The notes below the pieces were generated by a model, which was not told the DNA's origin, searched no databases, and saw only the letters and a program-made list of their open reading frames with translations. A stretch of DNA of 64,000 nt from Candidatus Gastranaerophilales bacterium (GTDB lineage Bacteria; Cyanobacteriota; Vampirovibrionia; Gastranaerophilales; Gastranaerophilaceae), in assembly GCA_944325885.1 (NCBI GenBank), contig CALVBT010000002.1, positions 1-64,000 of the forward strand, in the 5' to 3' direction. Both the position numbers and the translations under genes were made by a program. Each line of letters opens with the position of its first letter. The first letter of the stretch is position 1. Shown here piece after piece: positions 31,756 through 37,215 of the stretch.

Positions 31756-31828
31756 GCCGGTGTAGCTCAGCTGGTAGAGCAGGTCATTCGTAATGATCAG
31801 GTCGCAGGTTCGAACCCCGTCACCGGCT
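31756..31828 (+). tRNA. tRNA-Thr (CGU anticodon)
   Basis: 73 nt: acceptor GCCGGTG/CACCGGC, D-arm GCTC/GAGC, anticodon stem GGTCA/TGATC (one G-U) with loop TTCGTAA (anticodon CGT), T-arm GCAGG-TTCGAAC-CCCGT with one mismatch, discriminator T. CCA is not encoded. It marks the left edge of the AT-rich cassette. Confidence 0.92.
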
Positions 31829-31947: not shown

Positions 31948-34422
31948 ATGTTGATTTCATCAGTACTTCCAATAAGGGAAAAAACAAATATTATACACAA
32001 ATCAACGTGCAATAATATTCAGGATAATACCAAATATAACAAAAATTTTAATAATGAATTAAAAAATAGCAATTATTTGAATGTTTTTTATATACCTAAT
32101 TTTAAAGGTAATATTAATCCTGTTTGTAATTATATATCGAGTGCAGATGCTTTAAAAATCCAAACAACAGAATTTGTATATGAAATTGAAAGGGATTTAT
32201 CACCACAAAAATATGCACAAAAAGCTATACATAAAATCTTTGAGAAAGATTGTCGATTTTTAGATAAACATTATTTTTCAATTTCTGATAATTATGATAA
32301 ATTTTCTAAATTAGGTTTTATTGATAAATATTTAAATTTTAATCAGGAAATTTTAGATTTTTTAAATAGAACAAATCAACGAAAATTGGCAAATGTTTAT
32401 GATGATTTTTTTAATAAAAATCTTAAATCTTTAGAAAAAGTTTCAAAAGGAGATGTCTCTTATACCAATTTGTTTTTAACTAATAAAATTGGAAATAAAT
32501 ATATAGTGGATTTGTGGTTGGACTTTTTGGGAAACAATGATATTTTAAACAATGATATAAAGATTGATATCCTCAACAAAAAATTGAAGGAAAAATATAA
32601 AAATAGCGGGACAATAGATGACATAGCAATAAAAACAATAGAAACATATTTTTGTAACTTATTACACCCTATCCAAGTTAAAACAGAGGATAGTGATTTG
32701 GCTTTATCTTTAAATAATCTTTTAAATATTAAAAACAAATTGTCTGAAATTTTGAAGGATAATGTTGTTGATGATGATGAATTTAAAAAAATAATAAATG
32801 ATAAAAAATTTATTAATTTTAAAATAAAGGATAAAACATTAAAAAGTATTCTTTTATCCCAATTAAATCAAAAATTTATTGATGACATGGGGGAAAATTT
32901 GCAAGATGAATTGCTAGAAGAAATTTATGAAGATTCCTATCTCAGAAAACAAGTTGTATTGAATACTCTCAGTTTTGTAAGAAAAAATATTATTAGTTTG
33001 AAAATAAAAATTGAAAAAGAAAAACAATCAAATAATTTAGAATTTAACAATGAATTTAAGAATTTTGATAAAACATTAGCTACAGAATTATTTGTGAATA
33101 ATTCCAATGAAAAAGCTAAAAATGTAATTAATAATATTAAGGTTTTTGAACAAGCTGCAGAAAAATTGTTTAGTCAAATGATTGAACAAAACCCTTTTTC
33201 TTCATCGAATAATAGAAATGTTAATGAAAAATTAAATATAGTATTTTCTTTAATAGATGAATCATTGAGGACAGCCGATAATGCAGATTATGTTAAAGAG
33301 TGTCTTGAAAAATTAGCCGATTTATCAGAAGCTTTAGACAATAATAACATTACACTTGCTAATGAAATATGGAATAACAGCTTATTAAATTTTGCTGTTA
33401 ATCAATGGAAGTCAACACATTTGCCAAATATAATAAAAAATAAACAAAATAGTTATATTGTTTTAGAAAATTTTTATAATAAAAAGAAAACAAATGAATT
33501 ATTAAAAACAGGAATAATAGATACATTTTTCAATTCAGATATTGTGACATTAGAACAAAAAGTATTTTTGGCAACTAAGAGTGATTCTTCTGAATTTATA
33601 AGTTTGTGTAATTTTTTAAACAAACATGTTCCAAGCAATCAACAACGTAAAGTGATTATTGATAAATTAATAGATAATGAACGTATTACGCTTAATAGCT
33701 ATGATACATTTAAAAATTATTTTATTTCAGATGTAAGAGCAATGAATGAAAAAAGTCTTATATACAATAAAATAATACAAGGGTCAAAGTTATGTGATTT
33801 AGTACTAGAGCAATTTGTGGATGATACCGCTGTATTTGATGAAAAACAAAAAATTTCATTTTTAAATAATCTTACTGATGAAGAATTATCGCAAGCTTTT
33901 GAAAATATTAAACCATTATATGTTGAGCAACAATTTAATTGTGCGGTAAAAAAACTTTCGGACAAATATGATGTAGCTAAACAATCAGAAAAAATTTTAG
34001 AGAATTTAGTAATTGAATTAAATGGACAAACTTATAATTTATTTGATGTTATGGATAAAGATTTTTCTTATATGTCTAATATTATAAATAATTCTAATTA
34101 CATACAACAAGAAAAATTGGATGAAGTTATAAAATTATTAATTATAGACAAGGATTTGTCAGAAAATGTATATAAAACAATAAATTTACTGCTGGATAAG
34201 ATGATAGCCGCTTCACCGGCAAATACAAATAATATACAAATGACAAGATCTCACATAGATAAAATTTTTACAGCACTCAAAAAATCATCGCCGTCTATTG
34301 TATATTCTTTAATTTCATATCTGATAACTCAACATCCTGTAGTATGTGTACCCAGTATAATAACAACTGCCTTTAATATTATTGAACAATATTCTAAAAA
34401 AAATTTAATACATAATTATTAG
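31948..34422 (+). CDS. Large AT-rich cassette protein, unknown function, with N-terminal NFKG motif
   Basis: An 824-residue protein, first of four genes in one direction. It is almost wholly alpha-helical and very rich in N, K, I, L, D and S, with no signal peptide or membrane segment that I can see before a weakly hydrophobic stretch at the end (HPVVCVPSIITTAFNIIEQY). The short motif PNFKGNINP lies at residues 50-58 (F52-K53-G54). Base composition is more AT-rich than in the neighbours, and A/T-ending codons dominate, as in recently acquired or fast-evolving genes. No enzyme motif was found. The ATG has no clear ribosome-binding site (GGAT at 13 bases). Confidence 0.75.
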   Translation: MLISSVLPIREKTNIIHKSTCNNIQDNTKYNKNFNNELKNSNYLNVFYIPNFKGNINPVCNYISSADALKIQTTEFVYEIERDLSPQKYAQKAIHKIFEKDCRFLDKHYFSISDNYDKFSKLGFIDKYLNFNQEILDFLNRTNQRKLANVYDDFFNKNLKSLEKVSKGDVSYTNLFLTNKIGNKYIVDLWLDFLGNNDILNNDIKIDILNKKLKEKYKNSGTIDDIAIKTIETYFCNLLHPIQVKTEDSDLALSLNNLLNIKNKLSEILKDNVVDDDEFKKIINDKKFINFKIKDKTLKSILLSQLNQKFIDDMGENLQDELLEEIYEDSYLRKQVVLNTLSFVRKNIISLKIKIEKEKQSNNLEFNNEFKNFDKTLATELFVNNSNEKAKNVINNIKVFEQAAEKLFSQMIEQNPFSSSNNRNVNEKLNIVFSLIDESLRTADNADYVKECLEKLADLSEALDNNNITLANEIWNNSLLNFAVNQWKSTHLPNIIKNKQNSYIVLENFYNKKKTNELLKTGIIDTFFNSDIVTLEQKVFLATKSDSSEFISLCNFLNKHVPSNQQRKVIIDKLIDNERITLNSYDTFKNYFISDVRAMNEKSLIYNKIIQGSKLCDLVLEQFVDDTAVFDEKQKISFLNNLTDEELSQAFENIKPLYVEQQFNCAVKKLSDKYDVAKQSEKILENLVIELNGQTYNLFDVMDKDFSYMSNIINNSNYIQQEKLDEVIKLLIIDKDLSENVYKTINLLLDKMIAASPANTNNIQMTRSHIDKIFTALKKSSPSIVYSLISYLITQHPVVCVPSIITTAFNIIEQYSKKNLIHNY

Positions 34423-34435
34423 TAAAGGAGAATTT

Positions 34436-34759
34436 ATGTATATATCAAGTATTTCTGTGACACGATCTTTAAAAAGTAACTTTAAACAAAATCAAGATTC
34501 GATTTTATATAGCCATATAAGAAACGCAATGTCAGAAAATTTTGATAGTATGCTTGAAGAAGCCAAAAATAGAGCAAAAAAGGGCATTAAAGATGAGTTC
34601 TATGACGAATTTAATAAAAAAATTGAAGATAACTCAAAATCATTGAGTAATCCGGAGATAAAAAGCATATTAGTAACTCTAATGGACGCATATAAAAAGG
34701 CAAATTTATATACCGATTCAAATGCTATTAACCATTATATTCAAGAAAAAAATTTATAA
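34436..34759 (+). CDS. Small AT-rich cassette protein, unknown function
   Basis: A 107-residue, charged, helical protein, 13 bases after the preceding gene with a good AAAGGAG site. KSNFKQN (F16-K17-Q18) near the start is a loose version of the motif seen in the neighbours. The centre is coiled-coil-like (MLEEAKNRAKKGIKDEFYDEFNKKIEDNSKS). The size and position would fit a chaperone- or partner-type protein for the large first gene; this is a guess from layout only. Confidence 0.7.
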   Translation: MYISSISVTRSLKSNFKQNQDSILYSHIRNAMSENFDSMLEEAKNRAKKGIKDEFYDEFNKKIEDNSKSLSNPEIKSILVTLMDAYKKANLYTDSNAINHYIQEKNL

Positions 34760-34778
34760 TCTAGAAAGAAAGTTTATT

Positions 34779-35432
34779 ATGAATATTTTACCATTAGTAA
34801 AAAGTAATATAAATTTTAATAATTCTCATATATCTTTTTCTTCTCAATCTGTTGTTCAAAATGATTTATACAGTATAGATAATAAATTGTTTATAAAAAA
34901 TAAGGTAAATGAAATAATAAATGAAAGAAGAAAGAACACTGTTGCTCTTATTTCTGATTATGCAGTAAGTGATTTGAAAAATAATCTTTTAAATAAACTA
35001 AATAATACAAAAAAATTGGATGATATTAATAACAAAGTTTTTTTATTGGAAGAGATAGCTAATAGTTATTCAAAAATTAATATAGAAAAAGCTTTTGCAA
35101 TAAAAATACAAACAGCTTATGAAATATTAAACTGTAAAAATTTAAATAAACCAGAAAAGCTAAATTTGATAAAAACTATACGACTACCAGATACAGCTGA
35201 TAAATATGTTAATTCTTCATTCGTAAAAACTGTTAAGTATGAAGGCCTACCCTTTAAAGAATATAATACTTCTTTGATATTGAACTTTGAAGTATTATCA
35301 TACAAATTTAAAGATATATACGGATATGACATTTTTAATGGAAAAAGTGATGAACTTAAACGAAATACTATATTTTTTCCATATGAGGTAGCAAAAAACA
35401 CTTTAATGAAGATGATGCATGGAAATATATAA
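34779..35432 (+). CDS. AT-rich cassette protein, unknown function
   Basis: A 217-residue soluble, helical protein. The ATG at 34779, preceded by GAAAGAAAG, is preferred over an ATG at 34722 inside the previous gene. Near the start is HISFSSQ (F20-S21-S22), again close to the shared motif. The rest has no recognisable domain; DIYGYDIFNGKSDELKRNTIFFPYEVAKNTL is the most complex stretch. Confidence 0.68.
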   Translation: MNILPLVKSNINFNNSHISFSSQSVVQNDLYSIDNKLFIKNKVNEIINERRKNTVALISDYAVSDLKNNLLNKLNNTKKLDDINNKVFLLEEIANSYSKINIEKAFAIKIQTAYEILNCKNLNKPEKLNLIKTIRLPDTADKYVNSSFVKTVKYEGLPFKEYNTSLILNFEVLSYKFKDIYGYDIFNGKSDELKRNTIFFPYEVAKNTLMKMMHGNI

Positions 35433-35449
35433 AGAAAGGAAATCTGCTT

Positions 35450-36544
35450 ATGAAAGTATCAATTATTAATTTTAATTCATATATTGCTAATAAAAATTGT
35501 CCTGTATTAAATAGTATTAACAATACCAATGTATTCTCTTTCGGTAATAGAAAGTATGATTTTTTTGAAAGGGCAATTAATGAAGAGGAGCATATTAAAT
35601 ATGAAAATAGGATGAAAAAAAATAAAGCAAATACTGAAACTAACTTAGGCTCAGTAAATAATGAGTATGTTGCTGTGTCTCAGAATACAAATTTAGCCAA
35701 TGGCTTAGAAATGGCTGGTCTTGTTGGAATTCCTTTGATTTTGAGCATAGCATTGGCCTCTGCTATTGCGAGAGGTACTGAATCTCCAGAAGACATATTT
35801 CTCCCTGATGGTACTTATTTTTGTAATGCTAGAGATCTTGCTGTAAAATCATCAAAATTAGAAGCGGATGGCAATGATGGTATATTAAAAATAAAAGGTA
35901 CCGGAATTCAAATTGATAAATCAAGGTATGATGAAGATTTGTCAGATCCAACAAAAGGTGTATTTAAAAGTGCAGATGGTAATTTAGATATTGACCTTAT
36001 AAACAATAAGTATATTGATAAAACCAACGGCATTATTGTTGATCAATCTCATTCAATTTCTGCATTTATGACTGAAGATGGAACATTTAAGCAAATACCA
36101 CTTGTTAATTTTAGTGGTTCATGGAGTCCATCAAATTCTTCTGCTATGCCGTCTAATGAAGATTATGAATTGATTGAATCTCTTTGTGAAAGATTAAGAA
36201 ATCAAGAATTTCATGATAAATGGGATGGAATATTAGATAGATATAAAGATACTGTAACTGATATAAATAAGACAAATGTACAAGTCGAAAAAAATGCAGA
36301 AATCGACAATTATGTAAATCAACATAATCTTGAGCCAGAAAGCGTAAACCAAATTATTGATTATGCTGATAATTTAAGATTAAAAGAGTATATGTTGGAT
36401 AATTATCCTGACTTATCATCAAAAGTTAGTCTTGATAGTATAGATGAGTTTATTCAAAATCTTCATATGGAAGGCACTGATTTTGATACAGCAAGTGGAC
36501 TAATTGATATTATCAATGATGTGAGTGATATGTCTTTCATCTAA
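35450..36544 (+). CDS. AT-rich cassette membrane protein, unknown function
   Basis: A 364-residue protein, last of the cassette. AAAGGAAA precedes the ATG. VFSFGNRKYDFFE (F31-G32-N33) is the shared motif. One membrane helix lies at about residues 88-108 (LEMAGLVGIPLILSIALASAIA). After it comes a beta-rich region with repeating strands (LPDGTYFCNARDLAVKSSKLEADGND, GILKIKGTGIQIDKS, FKSADGNLDIDLINNKYIDKTNGIIV), like a small solenoid or an auto-transported passenger, and then a helical acidic C-terminus. No known family. Confidence 0.7.
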   Translation: MKVSIINFNSYIANKNCPVLNSINNTNVFSFGNRKYDFFERAINEEEHIKYENRMKKNKANTETNLGSVNNEYVAVSQNTNLANGLEMAGLVGIPLILSIALASAIARGTESPEDIFLPDGTYFCNARDLAVKSSKLEADGNDGILKIKGTGIQIDKSRYDEDLSDPTKGVFKSADGNLDIDLINNKYIDKTNGIIVDQSHSISAFMTEDGTFKQIPLVNFSGSWSPSNSSAMPSNEDYELIESLCERLRNQEFHDKWDGILDRYKDTVTDINKTNVQVEKNAEIDNYVNQHNLEPESVNQIIDYADNLRLKEYMLDNYPDLSSKVSLDSIDEFIQNLHMEGTDFDTASGLIDIINDVSDMSFI

Positions 36545-36568
36545 AATTTAAAATGTATTGTGTCTAAT

Positions 36569-36602
36569 AAAAAGCCCTGTTTTTATAAACAGGGCTTTTT
36601 TA
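36569..36602. terminator. Bidirectional terminator closing the cassette
   Basis: AAGCCCTGTTT / AAACAGGGCTT arms with a T run on the right and an A run on the left; it serves both the cassette and the convergent minus-strand gene. Confidence 0.9.
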
Positions 36603-36618: not shown

Positions 36619-37215
36619 TTATTTTAAAAAATCTTCAAACTGTTCTTTTTTTAGTTCAAAGTTTTGGTATCTAATGTTTGAGCCTGTTTCGGGCATTTTT
36701 ATTTTTTGCAGAAACCTTGCTTCAGAAGGTTCTTGTGCTATTGCTACAACTCTTTCTACATTTGTTTTTTTATTTATCATTTCGACGAATTTTTTCACAA
36801 GCGTACTGCCCAGATGTTTTATTTCACGTTTGTTTTTGTGTTGTTCGTATGCGTGTTCCGGAGAAACACCAATTCTAAAAATTTCTGCAGTTTCTGCACC
36901 TTTTTCAAATCTGTTTGTAGTCATTAATGCTTTGATTTTTTTAGGGTCAAGGTTTCTGAAATTTGCACTCTGTGTAGTTATTGCAAAAACAGGGTCATTG
37001 CATATTGCTGATTGTTCCTGCATAGAGGCTGAGAGGTTTTTTCCGTTCCACAAATTTTTAACTTCTTCAAGTGCTAATCTGTCACTCGGATTTTCTTTTG
37101 CATGAAGCCTTACAAAGCTCATTGGAATTTCTTTCCATTGTTTATCTATCTTTGCGGGAACTTTTACCATTCCTAATCTTGTTGCTTTAAATGATACATT
37201 GTTGTTTGTTTGCAT
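36619..37215 (-). CDS. GNAT-like protein with N-terminal SFKA motif
   Basis: A 198-residue protein. The start MQTNNNVSFKATRLG carries the shared motif (F9-K10-A11) within the first eleven residues. HLGSTLVKKFVEMI followed by VERVVAIAQEPSEARFLQKIKMPETG resembles the C-terminal half of GNAT acetyltransferases: the acetyl-CoA loop with a G-S in place of GxGxG/A, strand, then the FLxKxGF-type end. The similarity is faint and the acetyl-CoA loop is incomplete, so activity is uncertain. It stands alone with its own terminator. Confidence 0.6.
   Translation of the reverse strand: MQTNNNVSFKATRLGMVKVPAKIDKQWKEIPMSFVRLHAKENPSDRLALEEVKNLWNGKNLSASMQEQSAICNDPVFAITTQSANFRNLDPKKIKALMTTNRFEKGAETAEIFRIGVSPEHAYEQHKNKREIKHLGSTLVKKFVEMINKKTNVERVVAIAQEPSEARFLQKIKMPETGSNIRYQNFELKKEQFEDFLK

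Follow-up and report, generated by a model that had tools for sequence, protein, structure and literature searches.

Four adjoining genes downstream of a threonine tRNA gene in a Candidatus Gastranaerophilales bacterium, an uncultured gut organism related to cyanobacteria, raise the question of whether they belong together and, if so, what they do. They lie in a stretch of 64,000 nucleotides (nt) at the start of contig CALVBT010000002.1 (GenBank assembly GCA_944325885.1), the whole of which we call the window. We found that the four genes, g1 to g4, are a single accessory cassette gained by horizontal transfer. It represents the short form of a module that, among the genomes searched, is restricted to one Gastranaerophilales family. 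The cassette is a real, undescribed and mobile multi-protein system with a modular build. Its role, we infer, most likely lies in conflict between mobile elements (anti-phage or anti-element defense, or the exclusion of competitors), an assignment that we make tentatively. The cassette and its borders are as follows.

31756–31828, + strand: tRNA-Thr (CGT), found by ARAGORN; left border of the insertion
31948–34422, + strand: g1, an open reading frame (ORF) of 824 residues, all-helical with a hydrophobic C-terminal segment; homologs are co-located with g4
34436–34759, + strand: g2, an ORF of 107 residues, charged and helical; profile-profile match to the N-terminus of the "third" protein
34779–35432, + strand: g3, 217 residues (from the ATG at 34779), short form of a variable protein that we call the "third" protein
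35450–36544, + strand: g4, an ORF of 364 residues, predicted to be membrane-anchored, the most widespread of the four components (alignments)
36569–36600, no strand: bidirectional terminator-like inverted repeat with convergent genes on either side (repeat search); right border

A sequence-only reading of this stretch had picked out four genes in one direction, with gaps of 13–19 nt and products of these sizes, and the ORF coordinates agree: the gaps are 13, 19 and 17 nt, and g1 starts 119 nt past the end of tRNA-Thr, as had been stated. The four genes are also, as claimed, more AT-rich than their neighbors. Their G+C contents (GC) are 0.229, 0.265, 0.220 and 0.298, against 0.368 ± 0.034 for the 44 other ORFs of the window, and at third codon positions (GC3) the values are 0.14–0.22 against 0.335 ± 0.048; g1 and g3 lie ∼4 standard deviations away from the other ORFs in composition. 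The bidirectional terminator that had been placed at the end of the cassette corresponds to a perfect 14 bp inverted repeat with A and T tracts between g4 and a convergent gene, which a consensus terminator scan of the locus did not pick up. A promoter scan of the locus gave matches no commoner than in shuffled sequence.

The order levanase, tRNA-Thr and a 198-residue gene is common to the window and two congeneric genomes, G022 and G013. The distance from the tRNA to the 198-residue gene is 174 nt in G022 and 345 nt in G013 versus 4790 nt in the window; that is, the tRNA-Thr site, where presence or absence had been suggested as a check, is empty in both congeners. The cassette is an insertion in the window genome, the alternative being its loss from both G022 and G013, and we favor insertion over a double loss because of the low GC and the patchy spread of the genes. 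At five loci (the window, L092, L021, L100 and L104), a cassette border and a tRNA gene lie no more than ∼600 nt apart. In its position 119 nt downstream of a tRNA gene, with an empty site in relatives, the cassette resembles tRNA-gene genomic islands; unlike them, it contains no integrase ORF (ORF list and Pfam), and a repeat search found no tRNA-derived direct repeat at its right border. We also observed, at the empty sites of G022 (L138:9898-10071) and G013 (L139:9168-9512), repeated copies derived from the tRNA-Thr 3′ end (CCCCGTCACCGGCTTTTTTAACAAATTTTATGCGAACCTGCGACC...) between the tRNA and the next gene. These repeats, which are reminiscent of RtT-type repeats, are not present in the window.

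Homologs were found on contigs that belong to Candidatus Gastranaerophilales by an alignment-based scan with g4, whereas a scan of genome contigs with the single g4 sequence gave no match. Within the genus (23 genomes, the window genome included), g1 occurs in 5 genomes and g4 in 7. Across the family (288 genomes), g4 occurs in 36, spread over 13 of 41 genera, and g1 has a strong match in 11; 10 of these 11 genomes, all except G003, also have g4 at that locus. A class-wide search of 97 genera restricted g4 to this one family. No homolog was found in 50,697 phage records searched with one g4 query, or in a scan of IMG/VR viral contigs with g4.

The module comes in different layouts. Layout I consists of g4, g1, often a small protein, g2, the third protein and often a degenerate AAA protein with facing AAA genes. 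Layout I-short, represented by the window, G120 and G199, each from a different genus, runs g1, in some cases the small protein, g2, the third protein and g4, with no AAA genes of this family. In layout II, g4 is accompanied by a 700–850 residue AAA protein in the g1 position, a small protein, and a facing degenerate-AAA gene and AAA gene. The AAA domains of the larger versions reach 6.9e-21 in Pfam, and the nucleotide-binding sites of several AAA companions are degenerate. hhalign found no relation of g1 to the AAA protein that occupies its position in the large version, and the idea was dropped. The window g1 is 36–37% identical to the G120 and G199 copies across almost its whole length. Relatives evolve under purifying selection, with ratios of nonsynonymous to synonymous substitution rates (dN/dS) of 0.04–0.34, and of 0.12–0.24 for g1, g2 and g4 of G120 and G199. 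The genes are not core, and their neighbors in other genomes are related proteins, kept in the order g1, g2, third protein, g4 across three genera. Because the genes travel together between genera, their order recurs, selection is purifying and no relatives are known, the suggestion of an undescribed multi-component system is well supported; of the roles offered with it (surface, secretion, defense or host interaction), genomic context favors defense.

The stated lack of a known domain was confirmed. Searches of Pfam, PHROGs, PADLOC and NCBIfam with g1–g4 gave no convincing family, none of the four matched a PADLOC-DB 2.0 model at E 0.01, and PDB sequence-profile searches with g1 and g4 returned nothing; the libraries searched hold no known relatives of the cassette protein families. 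Sub-threshold Pfam matches to YutD-like, Phage_TTP_13 and B domain models were discarded, with scores far under the cut-offs. Pfam detected no AAA domain in g1–g4, and Pfam, NCBIfam and PADLOC scans detected no toxin domain or immunity gene. Neither an adhesin nor a signal peptide or secretion domain was found in the cassette proteins, and literature searches on the lineage turned up no description of the cassette. Of the checks that had been suggested, structure prediction gave models too poor for interpretation: the helical AlphaFold2 model of g1 has a predicted local distance difference test score (pLDDT) of 54.4 (6 sequences), and that of g4 34.7 (13 sequences). Foldseek with the g1 model found nothing at E ≤ 0.001, and no g4 fold search was run.

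Profile-profile comparison, the other such check, tied both g2 and g3 to the third protein family. A profile of the other third proteins, built without g3, recovered g3 at E 2.1e-12, and hhalign matched g3 residues 1–217 to approximately the N-terminal 260 residues of the family with a probability of 87%. Elsewhere the family is 320–717 residues long, versus 217 residues for g3, in which the variable C-terminal part is almost missing; the size given in the sequence-only reading was right, but "shortened member of a larger, variable family" is a more fitting description of g3 than "soluble protein" in general. We also observed that g2 matches the first ∼110 residues of the third family (hhalign probability 82%, E 1.3e-6; control pairs <1%), which makes g2 a putative paralog of its N-terminal domain.

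The third protein is the most changeable part of the module. Between G120 and G199, g1, g2 and g4 are 82%, 87% and 82% identical, respectively, and the third protein is ∼80% identical in its first 120 residues and 30–47% identical across most of its C-terminal half. It has no membrane segment. A HEAT_2 match (6.7e-6, Pfam) falls slightly below the cut-off; in the G005 and G012 proteins, a degenerate AAA domain makes up the C-terminal part. A constant docking end joined to a variable end would resemble a recognition or effector subunit. The constant, g2-like N-terminus with C-termini that are HEAT-like, degenerate AAA, of another kind or almost absent is also reminiscent of polymorphic toxins and effectors; unlike these, the family has no toxin domain, immunity gene or secretion signal that we could find. 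The third protein of G003 (L022:5930-7624) differs from those with HEAT or AAA ends: on our own reading, it finishes with a repeat-like stretch rich in tyrosine and aspartate.

All four cassette proteins carry the N-terminal motif, or a loose form of it, that had been reported for them. Its positions, with two further features of g4, are listed here.

32098–32109, + strand: g1 motif NFKG, residues 51–54 (sequence; motif enrichment), within PNFKGN at residues 50–55
34475–34489, + strand: g2 loose motif SNFKQ, residues 14–18 (sequence)
34830–34844, + strand: g3 looser motif ISFSS, residues 18–22 (sequence)
35531–35548, + strand: g4 motif VFSFGN, residues 28–33 (sequence; relatives read VSFKG)
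35693–35773, + strand: g4 predicted membrane helix, residues 82–108 (hydropathy peak; helix in the low-confidence model)
35792–36094, + strand: g4 conserved beta-rich region, residues 115–215 (invariant alignment columns; strands in the low-confidence model)

A pattern close to [IVL][SN]FK[GS] occurs in the first 80 residues of 71 of the 136 module proteins, compared with 12 of 106 internal stretches of module proteins and 15 of 156 control proteins (p 5e-16, a value inflated because the module proteins are related). The strict form is found in 39 of 136 module proteins versus 13 of 288 other ORFs, the counts outside the module coming from a sample of ∼354 kb drawn from relatives as well as from the window and its own genome, and many module proteins begin with MK[IV]. 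In g4, the motif lies N-terminal to the one membrane helix that had been predicted (Kyte-Doolittle value 2.24, scanning window from residue 88), and the beta-rich region that follows opens with P113, I116, F117, D120, G121 and Y123, invariant in two g4 alignments. Relatives are lysine-rich ahead of the helix; by the positive-inside rule, the motif end of g4 is therefore probably cytoplasmic, and a cytoplasmic motif would fit a docking signal better than an export signal. We propose that this lineage-specific N-terminal motif may act as a common docking signal. The motif, as [IVL][SN]F[KG], also occurs in the 198-residue gene beside the cassette (window 36619–37215) and in a 4-alpha-glucanotransferase-like enzyme of a relative (L092:4036-5937).

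These features suggest how the proteins might work together. g4 would act as an anchor that crosses the membrane once, its N-terminus and motif facing the cytoplasm and its beta-rich region the exterior, and g1 would be a long helical scaffold whose hydrophobic tail may associate with the membrane. g2 and g3 would dock onto the same partner through their common helical domain, and the third protein, with a C-terminal part that changes far more rapidly than the neighboring proteins, would be the recognition or effector component. In the larger versions, motif-bearing AAA and degenerate-AAA proteins would power or remodel the complex; in the short version, AAA proteins encoded elsewhere in the genome may do so. 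The picture as a whole, a new lineage-restricted mobile machine with a membrane-anchored complex linking soluble helical proteins to AAA ATPases, assembled through the motif MK[IV]...[IVL][SN]FK[GS] and given exchangeable specificity or effector modules by the third protein, is speculative, and we regard it as rather doubtful in this full form.

The AAA companions have distant known counterparts. Those of the larger versions weakly match models of the anti-phage AAA ATPases IetA/IteA and of TRIP13, but they fall far below the family cut-offs (an AAA protein elsewhere in the window genome scores 25 bits against an IteA cut-off of 510), no protease partner was seen, and the window cassette has no AAA gene. 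For a motif-bearing AAA protein of the window genome, the best models are those of the classical AAA unfoldase clade (CdvC, PAN and CDC48; E 1e-8 to 4e-10), again with scores far under the subfamily cut-offs; several companions are degenerate, in contrast to classical unfoldases. On contig C10 of the window genome (G000), we observed a second operon (L127:626-10180) whose products bear the motif and include two AAA ATPases. It ends 198 nt from tRNA-Met, and its second AAA gene is matched in 8 of the 23 genus genomes.

The genomic context favors defense or element conflict. Mu-like genes (MuA, MuB, gpF and gpG) directly precede several relative copies, and Mu-type genes adjoin the cassettes of G004, G120, G161, G218, G228, G261 and CAG:439. 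One slot, from gpG (79% identical) to the type III restriction subunit Res (94%), holds the short cassette in G120 and a cassette of layout type II in Fusobacterium sp. CAG:439; comparable loci elsewhere carry different contents, such as recombinase-like or other unrelated genes. PADLOC identified type III restriction-modification (R-M), SspC/SspD and a TIR protein adjoining relative cassettes, and a DUF2326 gene is among the neighbors of relatives. Genes of R-M/Ssp type make up ∼9 of 105 flanking proteins among the matches listed (Fisher p ∼0.003), and 105 control proteins from the same family gave helicase-like and generic matches with no clear R-M/Ssp; this enrichment is suggestive only, because the count comes from the matches listed and the loci are not fully independent. 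Patchy and AT-rich, swapped in one prophage/R-M slot and adjoining type III R-M, Ssp and TIR genes in relatives, the cassettes resemble prophage- or island-borne defense cargo. They differ in matching no PADLOC-DB family.

Several observations weigh against a role in defense. Many copies sit among ordinary genes, the window copy included, which has no R-M, Ssp or TIR genes nearby. Neighborhood is not function, because R-M genes gather in mobile regions generally. The short version contains no enzyme and no recognizable effector, and to the lack of a PADLOC defense match is added a lack of structural support, with low pLDDT for g1 and g4 and no Foldseek match for g1. The motif, too, has carriers outside the cassettes, ∼4% of ORFs, among proteins unlinked to defense.

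Could the module instead face the host? In a surface or host-interaction complex, the g4 beta-rich domain would be displayed outside on a cytoplasmic base of g1–g3, with variants swapped among gut strains. The lineage is host-associated, the beta-rich region of g4 is conserved and follows a single membrane helix, and some comparable Mu-linked slots hold glycosyltransferase clusters or a type I secretion operon. A host-selected surface trait, however, predicts that g4 should vary most, and g4 is less variable than the membrane-segment-free third protein. With no adhesin, signal peptide or secretion domain found, and with relatives frequently adjoining R-M, Ssp and TIR genes, we consider this explanation unlikely.

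The presence of the motif in ∼4% of other ORFs, the classical AAA domains of the larger versions and the occurrence of the second motif-bearing AAA operon in part of the genus would all suit an ordinary lineage-specific envelope or trafficking machine, in which AAA proteins handle motif-bearing clients and genes are frequently gained and lost. A housekeeping machine would be expected in most strains, but of the 23 genus genomes, 7 contain g4 and 8 contain the other AAA gene, and such a machine is distinctly unlikely here.

The Mu-like genes directly ahead of several copies, and the AAA-type cassette of G161, flanked on both sides by small tyrosine-recombinase-like genes, raise a further explanation: the module may serve its Mu-like or recombinase-linked carrier, through superinfection immunity or control of replication or transposition, and not the host. 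We think this quite improbable, as many copies have no adjacent mobile-element gene, no Mu-type transposition or morphogenesis genes lie beside the window cassette, and the phage and viral searches with g4 gave no homolog.

A larger AAA-driven system might be decaying at this locus, leaving the window copy as a remnant with g3 shortened from the 320–717 residues seen elsewhere and the AAA genes lost. This is very improbable, since the four reading frames of the window copy are open, its spacing and terminator are intact, and its order is that of G120 and G199, which also lack family AAA genes alongside and whose g1, g2 and g4 are under purifying selection.

A role in conflict between mobile elements thus stays our preferred, tentative reading. 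An anonymous AT-rich patch in a little-understood lineage of gut bacteria is now resolved into defined protein families that travel together, and their shortest version comprises four genes that could be transferred to laboratory hosts for testing. If the defense reading is true, the cassette would be an undescribed defense family; if the motif reading is true, it would reveal a new way to mark proteins for one assembly.

We also observed that 50 of 269 family genomes contain Mu-like element remnants with gpG at their end. Beyond gpG (L214, L215, L217-L222 and L224-L226), the DNA carries highly variable cargo, including type III R-M, glycosyltransferases, type I secretion and AAA cassettes. 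This cargo often begins with a small, ∼180-residue tyrosine-recombinase-like gene, and two such genes flank an AAA cassette in L224. On contig C3 of the window genome (L213:8102-13658), a Mu-like remnant comprises gpG, a D12 methylase, gpF and a cytosine methylase, and it adjoins an apparent type I secretion operon and a repeat-rich NDTxFGG-type protein.

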